DNA from: Nitrospira sp.
GTDB lineage: Bacteria; Nitrospirota; Nitrospiria; Nitrospirales; Nitrospiraceae
Length of the DNA stretch: 64,000 nucleotides
Assembly (NCBI GenBank): GCA_005116965.1
Contig: SWDG01000025.1
Location: forward strand, 299,883-363,882
Direction of reading: 5' to 3'
The translations under genes and the position numbers were made by a program. Under the pieces are notes generated by a model, which searched no databases, had not been told where the DNA came from, and saw nothing but the letters and a program-made list of their open reading frames with translations. This document shows positions 1,694-31,461 of this stretch, in pieces. Each line of letters opens with the position of its first letter. Position 1 is the stretch's first letter.

Positions 1694-2092
1694 ATGCCAC
1701 CCGATGCCCCGGCTTCACCGCCTTCACCGAGCGATCGCCGTGAATATTATCGCATCACTGTCTCGCTCCCCATCTGTCTTCAGCCTGAGTCAGATACTAC
1801 CGAGAACGAGTTCGTCGAGAAAGCAGTGAATCTGAGTGCCGGGGGCATCGGCGTCACGCTGAACCAGACCTTCGAGGTGAACGCCATTCTCTCCTGCGCC
1901 CTGCTCCTTCCCGGCGAGGTGCTCTTTAAGTCTCACCTTCAAGTATTGCGTGTGGATCCCATTCCCTACCCGCTCAATACGTATCGACTCCATGGCCATT
2001 TCCTCAGGATGGCCAATCCGAATCGAGAACTGCTGATCAGACATATCATCCAGTTTCAGCGCGAACACCTCAATAAGCACTATTCCGCCTGA
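1694..2092 (+). CDS. PilZ domain protein 1
   Basis: A single PilZ domain of about 132 residues, a c-di-GMP-binding module. The RxxxR-type loop is RREYYR near residue 15, and the second motif is NLSAGGIG, matching [DN]xSxxG. Both ligand-contact motifs are therefore present, so c-di-GMP binding is plausible. There is no output domain. The track's TTG start at 1634 would add an unlikely leader; ATG 1694 places the RxxxR motif in the usual position. A second PilZ gene follows 18 bp downstream and is probably co-transcribed. Confidence 0.85.
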   Translation: MPPDAPASPPSPSDRREYYRITVSLPICLQPESDTTENEFVEKAVNLSAGGIGVTLNQTFEVNAILSCALLLPGEVLFKSHLQVLRVDPIPYPLNTYRLHGHFLRMANPNRELLIRHIIQFQREHLNKHYSA

Positions 2093-2110
2093 ATAGGTAC
2101 AACCCTCATA

Positions 2111-2575
2111 GTGAAGAGGCCCCGGACCACTCTGGAGGACCCGTTTCGTCCCCGCGAAAGGGGGATTCATTCTGCCGATCGAGGCCGACTACACTGGGTC
2201 ACTGTGGAATCCATACGCCCCCATCAGCGCCATCACTATCGCGTCCCGCTTGCCATGCAATACCCCGTGATGTTTTCCGATGCGGAAACGATCGCGGAAG
2301 GAACAGTCATGAACCTGACGGTGTTTGGCTGCGCGATCGAATGCGCCGATACCATCCCAGAGGGAACCACCCTACGGATGCGGCTCATCCTCCCGGATCA
2401 GACACAGTCACTCCCGGTCGAGGAAGCGGAAGTCCGATGGACCCAAGGGAATCGAATGGGGCTTCAGTTTCACAGGGTGGAGCGGGCGGCGGATTTTCGG
2501 CTCCACAGCTTTGTGTGGGATCGGATGGTCGAACGGCTCCACACGATCACTCAGGAAGGACTTTCACCTTCTTGA
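2111..2575 (+). CDS. PilZ domain protein 2
   Basis: A 154-residue PilZ protein beginning at GTG 2111. The c-di-GMP loop is RHHYR around residue 40 and the second motif is NLTVFG, a Thr replacing the usual Ser of [DN]xSxxG. The rest of the barrel is recognisable (LRMRLILPD, then VRWTQGNRMGLQFHRV). It lies directly behind PilZ protein 1. Its last 25 bp overlap the convergent flippase-like gene, so the two transcripts run tail to tail. The first ~30 residues have no recognised domain and the start could be further in. Confidence 0.82.
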   Translation: MKRPRTTLEDPFRPRERGIHSADRGRLHWVTVESIRPHQRHHYRVPLAMQYPVMFSDAETIAEGTVMNLTVFGCAIECADTIPEGTTLRMRLILPDQTQSLPVEEAEVRWTQGNRMGLQFHRVERAADFRLHSFVWDRMVERLHTITQEGLSPS

Positions 2576-3558
2576 CCCCGAGGTCTCCTGCCTTTTCCCA
2601 CTAGGGCCAGGCACAAGAGTCCGATACCAATCCAGACCACTTCGCGGAATCGTCGGAGCAGCGCAAAGGTAATGCCCGTCACGTCGCTATAGCCGAAGGC
2701 CTGTAGCAAGAGGAGATTACCGGCGTCCTGTGCCCCAAGGCTGCCAGGGATAAAAAAAGTCCCACCTTTAATGAGGGCTGCCAAGGCGCCCATCGAGATA
2801 ACTGACCACAGGCTGGCGGAATCACCTAGAAAATAGATGATCACAAAGACTTCTAACGATTCGGCCAGCCAGCCGAAAAAGCACACCCCGGTCGAGAGGG
2901 CAAAAGTCCCACGATGCTGGCTGTAGAAATTCAGAATAGTCTGGTCGATCGAGCGTAGGTGTTCCTCTTGCGCTTCTAGAACCTGGATCCGCATTCCCAG
3001 CTTCTTCATGATTGCCAGCATCGAAGCAAAGAGCCCGCGCTGTTGGACAAAGATAAACCCTGCAATCGAACAGACCAATACCGACACACTCACGACCGCA
3101 GCTGTAATGGTCTGTCCCGCCGAACTCCCGACGCCCAAAATCAACAATCCAATGGCGATCCCGACGAGAATATAGAACACCTCGGCAATCGTGAGAGTCG
3201 TCTTGGCAATCACCACGGACGCGGCCCCTTCCGCCATCGGAACATTGTATTGTTTCAGCAGGTAGGCCTTCAGTGGTTCGCCGCCCATGTAGGCTGTGGG
3301 TGTCGTCATATTCACAACCTCCCCGGCGGTCCTGATCGTGAGAAGCCGCCAAAACGGGATCACTTGCGCGAATGCCCCCAATACCAGCTTCCAGCCATAT
3401 GCCTCGATCACATACATAAGGAGAGAGGGAATCAGGATGATCACCAGGGGGAAGGGGCCTAGCCGCAACGCCGCATCGTAGATGTTACCGGGTCCAATCT
3501 GCCAGACAAGAACGCCAAGCACGATGAGGCCAAGGGCTAGTAGGATATAGCGCAACAC
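2551..3558 (-). CDS. Flippase-like integral membrane protein (LPG synthase transmembrane / AglD-type family)
   Basis: The protein has about eight hydrophobic segments and ends in a basic tail. Conserved family features include GEVVNMTTPTAYMGGEPLKAYLL near residue 80 and KGGTFFIPGSLGAQDAGNLLLLQAFG near the C-terminus (compare the GxxP..G.x.G..E/D motif of this superfamily). Members are the membrane part of lysyl-phosphatidylglycerol synthase and are predicted lipid or glycolipid flippases. The track start at 3741 runs into the upstream gene; GTG 3558 leaves a 25-bp gap after the upstream stop and begins right at the first membrane helix. It is the last gene of the headgroup operon, so movement of the finished lipid is an inferred role. 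Confidence 0.8.
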   Translation of the reverse strand: MLRYILLALGLIVLGVLVWQIGPGNIYDAALRLGPFPLVIILIPSLLMYVIEAYGWKLVLGAFAQVIPFWRLLTIRTAGEVVNMTTPTAYMGGEPLKAYLLKQYNVPMAEGAASVVIAKTTLTIAEVFYILVGIAIGLLILGVGSSAGQTITAAVVSVSVLVCSIAGFIFVQQRGLFASMLAIMKKLGMRIQVLEAQEEHLRSIDQTILNFYSQHRGTFALSTGVCFFGWLAESLEVFVIIYFLGDSASLWSVISMGALAALIKGGTFFIPGSLGAQDAGNLLLLQAFGYSDVTGITFALLRRFREVVWIGIGLLCLALVGKGRRPRGQEGESPS

Positions 3559-3583
3559 GTTAGTCGGATGGCGAACGGGGCAT

Positions 3584-5020
3584 TTATGGCCGAGGAGACG
3601 AGACTGCGGATGGGCGGATGACCCAGCCCATGGCACAGGCAAAGAGCAATGCGCCGGCTGCCGCGAAGATGAGAAACCAATACAGCTGGTCGAACAGAGC
3701 AAAGCCCAACAGCGCGGCAGAAAAATCTCTGCTGGCCACATTCTTCAGCATGACGTCAGCCCACGCTGCATGAGCAGGGGTGCTCCAGCCACTCACCACT
3801 TTAATCTTTTGCGCCTTTTCGACGAGTACGAGTGAGAAGCCGTTGCCAAACACCGCAGCGGTGCCGAGTGCGAGCGGAACCCAGTCGTCCGCTTGTCCGA
3901 TGTGAGTCGTATAGAGCCCCACGGCAATACCTGCAAAAATCGCCATGTGCACGATGTTGTCCAACACGATATCCAGCCATGCACCAAGCGGCGACTCGGT
4001 AAAGGTCAACCGCGCGACTTCGCCGTCGCAGCAATCGATGACGGCCGCCAATTGAAACAAGAGGGCTGCCACGATACCGGCGCTATAGGTGCCCATCCCA
4101 AACCCTGTGGCCGCCAGCAGACCAACTAACCCGGCAAGGACCGTGATGGAATTGGGCGACAGTCCCATGGCGAGAAACAGGCGGGTAAACCAGCGAGAGA
4201 CTTTACGATTGAAATAGCGATCGACGAACCCTTCGAATTCCCCCTTGAGCGAATTGAACAACTTCTTTTCGGCTGCATGGACGTCAGACAGCGTTCGAAC
4301 GGGTTGATACCAATTCCCCTGCTTCGCTTCAGCCGAGACAACACGCACTCGACCATCCGCCGCGGCCCGCTCAAGCCACTGGCGGATCGGAGGGCTTCCC
4401 TTCTCACTCACAGTTTGATTCGTGGTGCTCATCAGGCTTGCCGGCACGACCACTAACTCAGCCACACGTAAGGCAGGACTGTCGAAACGAGGAGGGGCGA
4501 AAATCGTCGGACGATCAGACTGGACTTTCGCTCGCAGGCTCTGCACCATAAACTGATCGACCTGCCCCTGTGAGGCTTGCGAGACTACAATGGTCTGACC
4601 GTCCTGCACCTCACGCCGCAACCGTTCAATCAACCCTCGAGAGAACACGCTATTGACGCTCGCGACCAACGCAAAACCATGCACTTCGGCCGCCAAGGCT
4701 TCCCATGTCCGAGGATCATCGAGAGGAAATTCACGGATCGGCATCCATCGGACGGGAATCGTGACGCGTGGCCCTTTGCCAAGCGCCTGTTTCAGCTGCT
4801 CCTCCTCAGAACTGGACAGAACGATTAATTGACGAATCCCCGCCCGTTGCAAGGTGAGTACGATTCGTTGAAAGAGCCCGATCCCCACGACGCTGGTCAG
4901 GGGCCCTACATCATCAACCTGCGTCCCAATCGGACCGCCGAATACCCCGACCGACGGTAGCAGAATCGCCGTGGCCAACCCTTGAATCTCGACTCGCCTT
5001 TGGAGGATGCTCTTACTCAT
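3584..5020 (-). CDS. CDP-alcohol phosphotransferase with degenerate N-terminal nucleotidyltransferase-like domain
   Basis: Two parts. Residues ~1-240 resemble a nucleotidyltransferase fold (AILLPSVGVFGGP...GLFQRIVLTLQRAGIRQLIVLSS) but lack the GxGxR...PK loop, so activity is doubtful. Residues ~270-470 are a multi-helix membrane domain with the CDP-alcohol phosphotransferase signature DGEVAR-x8-G-x3-D-x3-D (DGEVARLTFTESPLGAWLDIVLD) complete. This family moves a phospho- or phosphono-alcohol from a CMP donor to a lipid or alcohol acceptor at the membrane. The architecture recalls archaeal IPCT-DIPPS fusions. A separate, intact nucleotidyltransferase gene lies immediately upstream and probably supplies the CMP-activated donor. 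Confidence 0.85.
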   Translation of the reverse strand: MSKSILQRRVEIQGLATAILLPSVGVFGGPIGTQVDDVGPLTSVVGIGLFQRIVLTLQRAGIRQLIVLSSSEEEQLKQALGKGPRVTIPVRWMPIREFPLDDPRTWEALAAEVHGFALVASVNSVFSRGLIERLRREVQDGQTIVVSQASQGQVDQFMVQSLRAKVQSDRPTIFAPPRFDSPALRVAELVVVPASLMSTTNQTVSEKGSPPIRQWLERAAADGRVRVVSAEAKQGNWYQPVRTLSDVHAAEKKLFNSLKGEFEGFVDRYFNRKVSRWFTRLFLAMGLSPNSITVLAGLVGLLAATGFGMGTYSAGIVAALLFQLAAVIDCCDGEVARLTFTESPLGAWLDIVLDNIVHMAIFAGIAVGLYTTHIGQADDWVPLALGTAAVFGNGFSLVLVEKAQKIKVVSGWSTPAHAAWADVMLKNVASRDFSAALLGFALFDQLYWFLIFAAAGALLFACAMGWVIRPSAVSSPRP

Positions 5021-5107
5021 GGTTCTCTAGGCACTAGTGTCTGCTCACCAAGGTTCCCTTGCGTAGGGTCCCTCTTCATCGAACAGCCTACTACAATGGA
5101 GACTTTC

Positions 5108-5827
5108 TCATAATTTTGGCAAAACTTCCAATTCAGCTTTTCTTACATCTTCAATGAAATCGATCTCGGTCCAGGGCAGCCCCCCAACCCGTTCATAGCC
5201 AACCCGCACGTCCTGAAAATACGGTCGCAACGCGTCCTCATACTCCATGTCCCATGAGCCTCGGTCGATGTAGCCACGGAGCGACGAGACAACATGAGGC
5301 GTGTCGGCATGCCGAACCCGAAGAAATCCAACTCCTTCACCGGCGTAATCGTAACGTTCCGGCATATTCTTCGACAGCGCAATCACTCGGCCCCCGGCCA
5401 CAACCACCATGCACTCCTCTCCAGTTTGCTGTACCGTCTCATCCATCAACAGCGCATTTTCACAGGGTGACGCCACGAGACGTCGTAGGATTTCTAGATG
5501 GAACAGCACATCGGCATCCATCACGATACTGTCGTCGTCGAGCGCGGTTCGTGCAATCCACAATGAGGAAATACTGCCCCTATGAAACTGTTCATTGACC
5601 AAAAACGTGACGTTGACACCGCAACAATCCTGCTCGACCGCCGCACGAATCATCTCCTGCTTATATCCGACAACAATCTCCGCCCGGCGAATCCCCACGG
5701 AAACCAGCGACTCCAGATAGCGATGCAGGAGCGACCGGCCGCCAATCTCGATGAGGCATTTCGGGTGATGCTGGGTGACTTCCCACAAACGTTTTCCGAC
5801 TCCCGCTGCTAGAATGACCGCCTTCAT
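5108..5827 (-). CDS. Sugar/choline-phosphate-type nucleotidyltransferase (LicC / PntC-like)
   Basis: A 239-residue nucleotidyltransferase with an intact signature MKAVILAAGVGKRLWEVTQHHPKCLIEIGG, a YLESLVSVGIRRAEIVVGYK block and the metal-binding VMDADVLF. The closest recognisable type is the LicC-like cytidylyltransferase group, which activates phosphocholine or 2-aminoethylphosphonate with CTP. Its ATG overlaps the TGA of the upstream transaminase gene (ATGA at 5824-5827), indicating translational coupling. Substrate is inferred from the neighbours: a transaminase that could make aminoethylphosphonate, and a CDP-alcohol phosphotransferase that would consume the CMP conjugate. Confidence 0.85.
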   Translation of the reverse strand: MKAVILAAGVGKRLWEVTQHHPKCLIEIGGRSLLHRYLESLVSVGIRRAEIVVGYKQEMIRAAVEQDCCGVNVTFLVNEQFHRGSISSLWIARTALDDDSIVMDADVLFHLEILRRLVASPCENALLMDETVQQTGEECMVVVAGGRVIALSKNMPERYDYAGEGVGFLRVRHADTPHVVSSLRGYIDRGSWDMEYEDALRPYFQDVRVGYERVGGLPWTEIDFIEDVRKAELEVLPKL

Positions 5828-25254: not shown

Positions 25255-25354
25255 TCCCCACAATGAACGCCCTCAACGGCTGCCGCCACCTCTACCACGT
25301 CGCTGCTCACTATGCGCTGTGGTACGCAGAACAGCGACCGCGTAAGCCACATTG

Positions 25355-26161
25355 ATGGAAGCAGTCACCCTCTTTCTCAAGACGATTCTCCTCCGCCCCT
25401 ATGTCTTTGCGTTCCTGGCCGCATTCCTCTTCGCTGCTATTCAACTGATTGGCTGGCCACGCACCTGGCGCTTCTGGCTCATCAGCTGGGCAACGGCGTT
25501 CGTCTGTGAATTCTCGTCCACGCGAACCGGCATCCCATTCGGCTGGTACTTCTACAATGGCTCGACCGTCGACCAAGAGCTCTATTTTTTTGACGTGCCG
25601 TTCATGGATTCCATCTCGTTCAGCTTCCTACTGTTTGCCGCCTACTGCGTCGCACTCGGGCTGCTACTACCGCTCACATCATCGCCAACACATGCCCGCA
25701 TTCCTCTACGGCAGCTGAACTTCGATCTGAGTGTGCGAACGAGTTGGGGTGTCTATGCCCTCACCGCGTTCCTCTTCGCCTTTATCGATATGGTGATTGA
25801 TCCGGTCGCTCTGCGCGGCGATCGTTGGTTCTTGGGCAAAATCTACTATTACCCCGACCCGGGCTGGCATTTCGGTGTTCCCGTGGCCAACTACATCGGC
25901 TGGGCTGTGGTGGGACTCATTTCACTGGCTATCTATTTCCCGCTGGACCGACGCCTCATCCCTCTCGCACCACCCCAATTGCTCACTCAGCGGCTATTGC
26001 TAGGAGTCGGGCTGTATTATGGAGTCTTGACCTTCAACCTCGGCATGACATTTTGGATCGGCGAAACGTTCATGGGCCTGAGCGGCCTGCTCATGCATCT
26101 CCCCATCCTCGTCCTTCTCGTTGTCCGCCTTTCTCACGTTCGGCGATACCACCCTACCTAA
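25355..26161 (+). CDS. Carotenoid biosynthesis protein, CruF/DUF422-like
   Basis: A protein of 268 residues with about seven transmembrane helices. FVCEFSSTRTGIPFGWYFYNGS, DVPFMDSISFSFLLFAAY, MVIDPVALRGDRWFLGKIYYY and GWHFGVPVANYIGWAVVG are the hallmark of the CruF/bisanhydrobacterioruberin-hydratase-type family that adds water to the psi end of acyclic carotenoids. The Asp residues in these motifs are thought to be functional. The ATG at 25355 is preferred to the adjacent TTG. Lying behind a prenyl diphosphate synthase it supports a carotenoid pathway. Confidence 0.85.
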   Translation: MEAVTLFLKTILLRPYVFAFLAAFLFAAIQLIGWPRTWRFWLISWATAFVCEFSSTRTGIPFGWYFYNGSTVDQELYFFDVPFMDSISFSFLLFAAYCVALGLLLPLTSSPTHARIPLRQLNFDLSVRTSWGVYALTAFLFAFIDMVIDPVALRGDRWFLGKIYYYPDPGWHFGVPVANYIGWAVVGLISLAIYFPLDRRLIPLAPPQLLTQRLLLGVGLYYGVLTFNLGMTFWIGETFMGLSGLLMHLPILVLLVVRLSHVRRYHPT

Positions 26162-27393: not shown

Positions 27394-28947
27394 ATGGAGC
27401 CGACATTGGCCATTCGACAGCCACCAAGAGGTCGTACGACACATCGTCTCTCGTTCGCTCGTTCACGCGCGATGGCCATGTGCCTGTGTATGACCGCACT
27501 TGGCATCCCAACTGCCGGACTCTACGCATCGACACCTTCGCCGGTCCCCCTCTTTGTTGAAACCCAGAACGAGATTCCCCCGGCGATTGCCCAGGCATTT
27601 TCCTCACCTGAGATGTCCAAACGATGGGTACGTCGTCACCGCTCTATGGGGCTCAATCCCGCTGCATTGGACGCCATGAAACTCGCCCGAAAAGATTCGA
27701 AACAGGATCTCTCACTAGACCTCTTCGATGCCGGCACACGGACGCTAGAGCTCGATGAACCAGAAATCCAACCCAATAAGGCAAAGGTGTGGCGCGGGCG
27801 GGTACGAGGTGAACAGGACAGCGACGTCACCTTAGCCGTACGCGGCACCAAGATGGTCGGAACGATTACCTCGGGTCAGCGTCTCTACAAAATCGAGCCG
27901 ACCGAGAACAACCGCCATCGTCTCGTCGAAATTGACGAAGACGCCATGCGACCGGATCACCATCCACTCGTGGTGCCCGACGATGGGACTCCCGCAGAAC
28001 CTCCCGCCCCAGAACCCAACCTCCTGCAGCCTGATGCTCGTTCGGCTGCCGCGACCGACACCGTGACCACTGCGGCAGCGACGGCGAATACCGTCGTCGA
28101 CCTGTTAGTCGTCTACACCTCCACGGCACGAACCAAGCAGGGTGGCCAGGCTGCTATGAATGCCCTGATTACACTGGGCGTCGATTTGGCCAATCAAGCC
28201 TACAGGAACAGCCAAATTGCAATGCAGCTCCGGCTGGTCCGCGCCGCTGAGGTCGCCTATGTGGAAACGGGCAACATCAGCACTGATCTTTCGCGCTTGC
28301 AAAGAACGAACGATGGCTTCCTGGATACGGTTCATCAATTGCGGAATCAATACAAGGCCGATCTCGTTGCATTGATCGTAGACAATGGCGGGGCCTATTG
28401 CGGCATCGCCTATGTCATGGCGAATGGGCCACGAGCCAGCTTTGCCAGTTACGCATTCAGTGTGACGGATCGCGATTGTGTGTCGAATAACACTCTCACG
28501 CATGAACTGGGTCACAATATGGGCAATGCGCATGATCGCGCGAGCGGCGGCAGTGGCGTCTTTCCCTATTCCTATGGATATCGCGATCCCGTCGGAAAAT
28601 TCAGGACCATCATGGCCTACGCCTGCCCCACTGTGTCCTGTCCACGCGTGAAGTATTTCTCAAACCCGAAGATTAAGATCAACGGCCGTCCAGCCGGGAT
28701 CGATCACAAGATCAACCCGGCAAACTCTGCGGACAATGCCCGCTCCATGAACGAGGTCCGGAACGTCATTGCGGCGTGGCGCACAGGAACCGCAACATCC
28801 GCCGCCGCAGCTCCAGACGGCTTGAAAGATTCTCGTGCAACGTTGCCCGATGATTCGGATGATAATTTGGATAGCGACTCGGATGAAGACTCAGACGATA
28901 CATCAGGAAACGATTCTCGGGGAAAGTCTCGTAGAACCATCCCTTAA
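27394..28947 (+). CDS. Secreted zinc metalloprotease (metzincin, reprolysin-like)
   Basis: ATG 27394 follows AGAGGAGG. Layout: signal segment (MAMCLCMTALGIPTAGLYA); a prodomain of ~150 residues (DLFDAGTRTLELDEPEI...VRGTKMVGTITSGQRLYKIEP...RHRLVEIDEDAM); a Pro/Ala-rich linker; a catalytic domain from VVDLLVVYTSTAR. The zinc site is THELGHNMGNAHD (HExxHxxGxxH) and the Met-turn is FRTIMAYAC. The C-terminus is a strongly acidic, Ser/Asp-rich tail (SDDNLDSDSDEDSDD), which may bind calcium or be disordered. The protease would act outside the cell or in the periplasm. A second gene encoding only its prodomain lies downstream. Confidence 0.92.
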   Translation: MEPTLAIRQPPRGRTTHRLSFARSRAMAMCLCMTALGIPTAGLYASTPSPVPLFVETQNEIPPAIAQAFSSPEMSKRWVRRHRSMGLNPAALDAMKLARKDSKQDLSLDLFDAGTRTLELDEPEIQPNKAKVWRGRVRGEQDSDVTLAVRGTKMVGTITSGQRLYKIEPTENNRHRLVEIDEDAMRPDHHPLVVPDDGTPAEPPAPEPNLLQPDARSAAATDTVTTAAATANTVVDLLVVYTSTARTKQGGQAAMNALITLGVDLANQAYRNSQIAMQLRLVRAAEVAYVETGNISTDLSRLQRTNDGFLDTVHQLRNQYKADLVALIVDNGGAYCGIAYVMANGPRASFASYAFSVTDRDCVSNNTLTHELGHNMGNAHDRASGGSGVFPYSYGYRDPVGKFRTIMAYACPTVSCPRVKYFSNPKIKINGRPAGIDHKINPANSADNARSMNEVRNVIAAWRTGTATSAAAAPDGLKDSRATLPDDSDDNLDSDSDEDSDDTSGNDSRGKSRRTIP

Positions 28948-28957
28948 CCGTTACGAC

Positions 28958-28988
28958 ACAGGGAGGACCTGCTTCCGGTCCTCCCTGT
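28958..28988 (+). terminator. Terminator after the metalloprotease
   Basis: A perfect 12-bp stem, ACAGGGAGGACC / GGTCCTCCCTGT, with a 7-base loop, ten bases after the protease stop. No long T-run follows. Confidence 0.75.
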
Positions 28989-29058
28989 CATGATCGCGTC
29001 AGGATGTCACGTTTGGTAGAATGAGAGGCGTGTGAGGCTAGCCCGGAATGACGATTCT

Positions 29059-29550
29059 ATGATTCACCGATTCAGTTATGTTCTCCTCGCTGTGGTCGTG
29101 GGAGTCATTATTGGGCAGATTGCGTGGGCTGATGAGCCACCGACACCAAAGGGCTTGTGGCATTCCGTCCTGACTCCTCCCTCTACTGGCCAACCACCGA
29201 TGCCACGAAAGCCGTGGATGCTTCGCGAACGAGAAATCACACTCGACGTCCCGCTCCTCCAGATCCTAAAGGATGCAGGAGCCAGACCGCTTCCTAGAAT
29301 CACCATCGAGCTCTTCGACAATGCCAACCCTGAACTGGACGTCACCTCCACGGTCTCCCGTATCAACAACACCGCCGTCATTCGCGGGACCTTCAAGCCT
29401 CCTATGCAAGGCGACTTCACCTTCGTAATTACCGGCAATCTTCTGATCGGAACCATCCAGATTGGCGACCGGATCTATAAAACCGACCACATCGCCAATG
29501 GGCGCATACGACTGGTTGAACTCGACCCCGACAAAATGCCGAGGGATTGA
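29059..29550 (+). CDS. Exported stand-alone homologue of the metalloprotease prodomain
   Basis: After a signal peptide (VLLAVVVGVIIGQIAWA) the protein consists of one domain that matches the protease prodomain in order: ITIELFDNANPELDVTSTVSRINNTAVIRGTF against LSLDLFDAGTRTLELDEPEIQPNKAKVWRGRV; ITGNLLIGTIQIGDRIYKTDHIANGRIRLVELDPDKM against VRGTKMVGTITSGQRLYKIEPTENNRHRLVEIDEDAM. No catalytic domain follows. Prodomains of metzincins fold and inhibit the enzyme, so this protein may be a dedicated inhibitor or chaperone (inference). ATG 29059 is used rather than 29032. Confidence 0.83.
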   Translation: MIHRFSYVLLAVVVGVIIGQIAWADEPPTPKGLWHSVLTPPSTGQPPMPRKPWMLREREITLDVPLLQILKDAGARPLPRITIELFDNANPELDVTSTVSRINNTAVIRGTFKPPMQGDFTFVITGNLLIGTIQIGDRIYKTDHIANGRIRLVELDPDKMPRD

Positions 29551-29589: not shown

Positions 29590-31461
29590 ATGAACGTTCC
29601 CGCTACAATGCCTCGGTTCAAAGTTGAACGTATGACTACCGCACCTACTCAAACCAAACCGGCCCCGGAAACGCTTCTTCAACGGACGTTGAATGCCGCG
29701 TTAAACGATATCGGCACGGATGCCGCGTTGGCGGCCATCTTCCACCAAGAAAATGGCCCGCTTGTTGAGCATGCGTCGCGCGGATTCACACCGAGAGATG
29801 TCCAAGCCATTCTCCGCACGCTCTCGACGCAACGTGCCGCAGCCTTGACTCCGACGGCCCAAGATCCTGACGGTGGACGTGCCATCCGCCTGCGGGTGAT
29901 CACCCCCGGGGCGAAATCCCTGCTGATCATTCCGCTTCGCCATGTCAATACCGTGTACGGATGCCTGGTCATCGGGCGGAAGGAGAACGCCGCGTTCTCC
30001 AAAAAGGACAAATCTCAGCTGGAGCAGATGTGCGACGGCATGACCAAGACACTGGACCGCGAAGGACTCTTCAACACCAGCGTGGTGTTGAGTCGTTCCT
30101 ATGTCACCCAGGAGCCGAGTCCTTCTCAACAAATCGGAGCGGACTTGTTTCCGCCGATGGCCAAGCACTTTTCACCCGAACTCCAAGAGAAGATCGAGTC
30201 GGTATTGGCCGACGCGCATGAATATGTGGCCTATGATCGGGCCTGGGCATGCTGCTACGATCCGCTGGCGGGAAATGTCGAGGTCTTGGGAGCTGCCGGC
30301 GATGTGAAACTCGACCCCAAAGACGCCAAGAAAGATTTAAAACCTGGTCAACGCCTGACGCTCGACAGTTCGGCGGCGGGATGGGCCGTACGCCATCGTA
30401 AGCCCCGAGTGGATCACGATCTGGCGTCTACCCAAGGTCGCTTTCTCGATCACAAACATCTCTTCAAGGACCGGTTTCAGTCGTCACTTGTCATCCCATT
30501 CTTCGTCAAAGGCCAGGTCGGCGGGACGTTTACGCTAGGATCAAAGGATCCACAACGGTATCAGACAACCGATGCTCGTACGCTGGAGCCCATTATTCTC
30601 AAACTCGCGGAGCTCTTACAGGCACCGGCACCGCAGGCTGCCGCTCCTTCTCCGACGACGGACCTCGACGGAACCGCGGGCCCATGGCCACCCATAGCCC
30701 TCCCGTCTGAGCCAATCATTCGAAAACAAGAACGTCAGGCCGCGATCGGCGAATTCAGCGCATTCTTGGCGACGGAAATTCGCGAGCCGCTCGCGTCCAT
30801 TCGCTCGCAACTTGAAGAAGTGACCGGTGAAGGGATCCTCGACTTCGACCCTCAAACACGGGTTGAGAATGCCATGCGCGACTTGATCCGGATTGAGGCG
30901 ATCCTCAATGAGATTCTCGACTTCGCCAAGCCACTCGAACTGAATCGCCATCTCTGTCGCATTCCGGAGGTACTCGAAAGCGCCCTCGTGGTGGTCGGAA
31001 CCGACCTAGAAGCGACCCGTATTCAGGTCACTAAAGACTACGCCAATATCATTGCGCCAGTGCGCGGCGATGAAGCTAAGCTCCAACAGACGTTCTTGAG
31101 CATTTTTCGGAACGCGTGTGAGGCCATGTCTCCCGGCGGCCACCTCCATATCCAGGTCTCACAACATCGTGCCGGACGAGGGTTTGAAGTTCAGATTCTC
31201 ATCAAGAACGACGGGGTTCCGATTCCCGCTGAAATCGTCGACAAAGTCTTCGAACCCTTTTTCACCACGAAGAGCTCAGGCATTGGCCTCGGTCTGCCCA
31301 GCGTGAAGAAAATCATCGAAGAACACGGTGGGTCCATTGCGATCGGGAGCGCTACCGGCGAGGGCACCACCGTCACCATCCGTCTGCCTGGTGTCAGCCG
31401 AGGACCGGCATTTCGACACCGTGGGCGTGGACGCCGTCCCCCTCCTCGTCGACCGAGCTGA
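29590..31461 (+). CDS. GAF-domain sensor protein of histidine-kinase type, phosphoacceptor His missing
   Basis: A cytoplasmic-looking 623-residue protein with no membrane helix. Residues ~30-165 and ~190-345 are GAF-like domains (FQSSLVIPFFVKGQVGGTFTLGSKD marks the second). The kinase core begins near residue 380: ERQAAIGEFSAFLATEIREPLASI is the HisKA helix, but the acceptor position of the usual AHEIRNPL is Thr. The ATPase domain has the N box FRNACEAM, NDGVPIP in place of the usual DxGxG, FEPFFTTKSSGIGLGLPSVKKII and GTTVTIRLPG. It may signal in trans or as a pseudokinase. No response regulator is adjacent. Confidence 0.88.
   Translation: MNVPATMPRFKVERMTTAPTQTKPAPETLLQRTLNAALNDIGTDAALAAIFHQENGPLVEHASRGFTPRDVQAILRTLSTQRAAALTPTAQDPDGGRAIRLRVITPGAKSLLIIPLRHVNTVYGCLVIGRKENAAFSKKDKSQLEQMCDGMTKTLDREGLFNTSVVLSRSYVTQEPSPSQQIGADLFPPMAKHFSPELQEKIESVLADAHEYVAYDRAWACCYDPLAGNVEVLGAAGDVKLDPKDAKKDLKPGQRLTLDSSAAGWAVRHRKPRVDHDLASTQGRFLDHKHLFKDRFQSSLVIPFFVKGQVGGTFTLGSKDPQRYQTTDARTLEPIILKLAELLQAPAPQAAAPSPTTDLDGTAGPWPPIALPSEPIIRKQERQAAIGEFSAFLATEIREPLASIRSQLEEVTGEGILDFDPQTRVENAMRDLIRIEAILNEILDFAKPLELNRHLCRIPEVLESALVVVGTDLEATRIQVTKDYANIIAPVRGDEAKLQQTFLSIFRNACEAMSPGGHLHIQVSQHRAGRGFEVQILIKNDGVPIPAEIVDKVFEPFFTTKSSGIGLGLPSVKKIIEEHGGSIAIGSATGEGTTVTIRLPGVSRGPAFRHRGRGRRPPPRRPS

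Follow-up and report, generated by a model that had tools for sequence, protein, structure and literature searches.

The window, a 64,000-nucleotide stretch of a Nitrospira sp. contig considered here at its full length, carries on its plus strand two neighbouring genes in the same reading frame, a protease gene at 27394-28947 and a small gene at 29059-29550, both of which were confirmed at these positions. The first encodes the 517-residue precursor of a secreted metzincin (M12B reprolysin-like) protease. Its catalytic part is matched by the Pfam families Reprolysin_5, Reprolysin_4, and Reprolysin_3 (E 7.5e-22 to 6e-16, all above the gathering cut-off), and the NCBIfam models for Mep72 (E 2.6e-48, 165 bits against a cut-off of 645) and CpaA (E 4.5e-14, below the model cut-off) likewise cover the catalytic part only. 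The catalytic zinc site HELGHNMGNAHD (28501-28536, plus strand) is intact, in keeping with the HExxHxxGxxH requirement of M12B proteases, and of 45 longer protease open reading frames 44 carry HExGHxxGxxHD, the remaining one being cut by a contig end.

Upstream of the catalytic part, inspection points to an N-terminal export signal region (27394-27528) composed of a hydrophobic stretch up to GLYA and then STPSPVP. It is followed by a 150-residue cis prodomain (27529-27978), defined by homology to the product of the small gene, an AlphaFold model, and a fold match. Near the prodomain end lies a D-H-H-P motif (27955-27966), which the alignment of Nitrospiraceae proteases identifies as typical of these enzymes; D-D-H-P replaces it in three, and the motif is varied in genome G048. 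Searches with 30 prodomains returned no significant match to a Pfam propeptide family, and a Cys switch was not seen in the Nitrospira protease prodomain. At its C-terminus, the protease carries an Asp/Ser-rich acidic tail of about 35 residues (28843-28947). A CruF-like carotenoid biosynthesis protein (Pfam Caroten_synth, 3e-20) is encoded upstream of the protease at 25352-26161.

Between the two genes lies an RNA hairpin with a 12-bp stem and a 7-nt loop (28958-28988, plus strand). It recurs across 24 Nitrospira loci, where 6 of 11 pairs have undergone compensatory changes, and no T-run adjoins it in the window. In genome G130, where the protease is deleted, the hairpin still stands upstream of the small gene. 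Its position may mean separate transcripts, or different expression, of the protease and the small protein.

A free-standing copy of the protease prodomain

The small gene (29059-29550, plus strand) encodes a 163-residue protein that matches no Pfam or NCBIfam model. Inspection and the family alignment identify a probable signal peptide (29059-29130) with cleavage between AWA and DE. Among 92 free-standing copies aligned, 77 have Ala at position -1, most have Ala, Val, or Ser at -3, and a D/E-rich segment follows. This conserved A-x-A and acidic pattern suggests that the export signal is cleaved and that the protein has no membrane anchor.

The sequence-only reading had described an exported protein that matched the upstream prodomain throughout. 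The kinship itself is borne out: BLASTP aligns the small protein with protease residues 17-185 (27% identity, E 3e-17), and an HMM-HMM comparison of the 92-sequence free-copy family with 45 protease prodomains places copy residues 49-163 (29203-29547; pLDDT around 90) on the prodomain over 115 ungapped columns (31% identity, probability 99.8%, E 4e-29). The similarity far exceeds chance. Within its own genome, the small protein matches, besides itself, only this prodomain (E 8.8e-14). The extent of the match needs trimming, for it covers the prodomain core, does not extend to the signal peptide and linker, which take up the first ~48 residues, and stops at the Asp of D-H-H-P. When PDB and Pfam were searched by sequence and by profile, neither the free copy nor the prodomain hit a significant family; three weak matches to Emfourin (best E 0.046) were not used as an identity.

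The copy closes with a P-R-D tail (29539-29547), ending where the protease goes on with H-H-P. All Nitrospiraceae free copies terminate at this same point, the Asp (or Glu) that opens the protease D-H-H-P, and none of the 92 aligned contains D-H-H-P itself. A P-x-D terminus is present in 44 of 44 copies paired with a protease versus 30 of 48 unpaired ones (Fisher p 1.4e-6); with only 6 changes of the tail on the tree, the correlation loses significance once phylogeny is taken into account, and there are too few independent cases to give the independent-pairs test adequate power.

Linkage and evolutionary history of the pair

Matches were found in 89 of 175 Nitrospiraceae genomes, from which 93 neighbourhoods were taken and their open reading frames classed. 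The same pair, which the sequence-only reading had proposed seeking in other genomes, co-occurs at 44 Nitrospiraceae loci. At each, the protease gene has a free copy downstream of it on its own strand, mostly no more than about 150 bases away. Across the 175 genomes, a copy accompanies every intact protease for which the sequence downstream can be read; the three proteases without a visible copy sit at a contig edge (G087b), directly before an N-run (G141), or in a truncated, fused form (G137). Yet 48 free copies have no adjacent protease, mostly in genomes where no similar protease was found. The linkage is thus one-sided: the protease depends on the copy, in that it does not occur without one, whereas the copy does not depend on the protease in this way. 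The 48 comprise copies at 47 loci and the second copy of G048 (L100). In that genome a divergent copy adjoins the protease, and a further one, lying 2.3 kb downstream, clusters with the unpaired copies.

Unpaired copies often keep the gene order of paired loci. In the genus of the window, this order is DUF5666/holin-like genes, the protease where present, the free copy, and a histidine kinase; genus g17 has another conserved order around the free copy. The GAF-domain histidine kinase of the window (29590-31461, plus strand) is the downstream neighbour with or without the protease and serves here as an anchor of synteny, not as a claimed part of the system. In G130, the protease is reduced to a short C-terminal remnant, and the free copy is 91% identical to that of the window.

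An antidote that occurs without the protease, but never the reverse, and that is conserved, often in the same order, where the protease is missing would also fit an immunity-type inhibitor directed against metzincins secreted by kin or competitors in addition to the cell's own, the unpaired copies being orphan immunity genes. We regard this as distinctly improbable: nothing marks the protease as an antibacterial weapon, no polymorphism or delivery domains were seen, and the producer would already be protected by the cis prodomain.

Five genomes carry a divergent pair at its own locus and an unpaired-type copy elsewhere, from which it follows that the pair keeps its own partner. Beyond the Nitrospiraceae, G331 has a free copy downstream of a metzincin, in the same order, and G323, of another family of the phylum Nitrospirota, has one upstream. 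A metzincin with an adjacent free copy thus occurs in two further Nitrospirota lineages. In G323 (contig C10, locus L191), the copy occupies 4730-5287 and a 975-residue metzincin 1788-4715, both on the minus strand. G309 and G271 have proteases only and no free copy. Searches of plasmids found just distant reprolysin-like proteases and no free copy, and the loci of Pseudoalteromonas and Photobacterium have no free copy adjoining the protease. Weak profile matches in G378, G345, G280, G337, G367, and G260 (E 0.002-0.008) fell in open reading frames that lack a matching catalytic domain and were left out of account.

In a tree of 138 rows, the free copies of the Nitrospiraceae group into a single clade (SH-aLRT 99), separate from the prodomains, and the unpaired copies include deep clades. 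The divergent pairs (G048, G055, G066, G074, G119, and G120) form matching clades on both sides of the tree, and the branching of the free-copy tree broadly parallels that of the prodomain tree. On the best tree, pairing status switched 10 times or more, with 5 of the switches on well-supported branches, and the tree gives no direction to them. Median pairwise dN/dS is 0.144 for paired copies, 0.255 for unpaired copies, and 0.18 for proteases; constraint on the copy therefore lasts without the protease, somewhat relaxed. Purifying selection on the 48 unpaired copies further implies that the free copy has, or acquires, a use independent of the protease.

Taken to its end, such a use would make the free copy an independent periplasmic protein of the same fold with a job of its own, which the protease merely adjoins. 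The numerous unpaired copies, many at the same locus minus the protease, favour this account, as do their deep clades, the selection that acts on them, and the retention of the copy in G130 after nearly all of the protease was lost. We nevertheless consider it rather unlikely, since it sits poorly with the lack of any intact, readable protease without a copy, with the divergent protease clade that has its own divergent copy at another locus, with the copies beside metzincins in two other Nitrospirota lineages, and with the weaker selection on unpaired copies.

The G323 copy and the prodomain of the adjacent protease share a stretch of 214 bases that is 93% identical, the sequence signature of a recent duplication or gene conversion. 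A single origin of all free copies was rejected by the AU test, much of the rejection being driven by this copied stretch. As the one-clade constraint fails, the prodomain was probably detached on more than one occasion, although gene conversion could mimic the signal. Recent copying of this kind, together with the clear homology and the adjacency, might make the free copy appear to be a functionless leftover of a tandem duplication that took in part of the protease gene. This is most improbable, being largely refuted by conservation and selection: the Nitrospiraceae copies are an ancient clade with conserved residues, an export signal, and a fixed end, and their dN/dS is well below 1.

Predicted fold and relation to known protease partners

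AlphaFold models built with the family alignments (pLDDT 85.9 for the free copy and 80.6 for the prodomain) share the same strand order. The top six matches of the free-copy model are chains of PDB entry 6o38 (probability 0.99-1.00, TM by target 0.54-0.63, E 0.012-0.086). The prodomain model also places 6o38 chains first (probability 0.99-1.00, E 0.002-0.010), with TM by target across both models of 0.54-0.65, followed by the ADAM17 prodomain structures 8snm, 9o54, 8snl, 9q7y, and 9o58 (probability 0.99-1.00). The matched 6o38 chains, 117-130 residues long, are taken as CpaB by their length, far shorter than CpaA, and by the published description (PMC7542363), not by chain names. Neither the free copy nor the prodomain matches PDB chains, 6o38 and ADAM17 included, by sequence or profile. 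By its model, the free copy has the CpaB fold.

Entry 6O38 is a co-crystal of CpaA and CpaB in which the C-terminal tail of CpaB blocks the active site in a manner "similar to zymogens" (PMC7542363). CpaB, to which an SRPBCC-like domain is assigned in the literature, is needed for the stability and type II secretion of CpaA (PMC7542363; PMC4713064); cpaB lies just downstream of cpaA, and CpaA secretion requires it (PMC4713064). The Nitrospira pair resembles this Acinetobacter system in combining an M12B-like secreted protease with a small, putatively periplasmic partner encoded just downstream, in the predicted fold and fixed C-terminal tail of that partner, and in the presence of gspE and gspG. 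It differs in that the Nitrospira protease has its own N-terminal prodomain whereas CpaA is described without one, in that CpaB is membrane-anchored whereas the copy has a probable cleaved signal peptide, and in that the copy often occurs without a protease and shows no sequence similarity to CpaB in PDB searches.

Other systems share some of these features. Mep72, the closest NCBIfam protease model, is encoded in Pseudomonas aeruginosa beside BamI, a binding partner that alleviates the toxicity of the protease in E. coli (PMC4334185). The small adjacent BamI is likened here by description, and the arrangement differs: BamI is encoded upstream of Mep72, and Mep72, as described, has carbohydrate-binding domains but no prodomain (PMC4334185), while the Nitrospira partner is downstream of a protease that keeps its cis prodomain. 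AprA and AprI, again compared by description, are a metzincin and an adjacent small periplasmic inhibitor, but AprA leaves by type I secretion and AprI is not presented as a prodomain relative (PMC4334185). The Nitrospira cis prodomain resembles the ADAM/M12B prodomains in its model's match to ADAM17, but it has neither a Pfam propeptide match nor a Cys switch, D-H-H-P stands at the equivalent end, and a second prodomain copy is a separate gene product. Stand-alone propeptide-like inhibitors, described in PMC4089206 and PMC6993865, include I29 crammer, BCPI, CTLA-2alpha, and Plasmodium SUB1-ProM; these are free-standing relatives of a protease propeptide as well, but for other protease classes (cysteine and subtilisin). 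Since CpaA and Mep72 are described without a prodomain, their partners could replace one; the Nitrospira system has both the cis and the trans form.

A candidate chaperone and active-site cap

On balance, we consider it moderately probable, by analogy with CpaA-CpaB, that the free copy acts in the periplasm as a CpaB-like chaperone of the adjacent protease and caps its active site. The protease would be exported as a zymogen, its active site covered by the ADAM-like cis prodomain, and the second gene would supply to the periplasm a free-standing copy of the prodomain fold. There, the copy would bind the same protease as CpaB does CpaA, aid its folding for type II secretion, and cap the active site of molecules that mature prematurely; its fixed P-x-D tail at the C-terminus might point into the cleft. 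In the genome of the window, gspE and gspG score above cut-off (G000:C4:203611-207032) and a GspD-like secretin below it, which together make type II secretion plausible.

The sequence-only reading had envisaged a dedicated inhibitor, chaperone, or immunity factor in a two-gene system. An inhibitor or chaperone remains the best reading, given the 44 pairs, the two additional lineages, and the predicted CpaA-CpaB fold, but the 48 conserved unpaired copies mean that the copy is not strictly dedicated to the protease. Several observations count against the chaperone and cap. The copy has no sequence match to the CpaB chains in PDB, and the E-values of the modelled fold are just 0.002-0.09; the copy lacks D-H-H-P, a possible inhibitory element; a second cap would be in part superfluous beside the cis prodomain; and CpaB is anchored whereas the copy appears cleaved, while the conserved hairpin may point to separate transcripts.

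A broader proposal, which we offer tentatively and hold at somewhat below even chances, is that metzincin chaperones of type II secretion systems such as CpaB are prodomains repeatedly detached from zymogens, with Nitrospira representing an intermediate: the protease there retains its cis prodomain, while a duplicate would act in trans and could afterwards survive the loss of the protease as an independent periplasmic protein. If true, this would join ADAM-type prodomains, bacterial metzincin zymogens, and type II metzincin chaperones, which are usually treated apart, and would explain the origin of the CpaB fold. It would also offer a nonpathogenic, nitrifier-associated system for comparing the cis and trans forms of a prodomain on a single enzyme.
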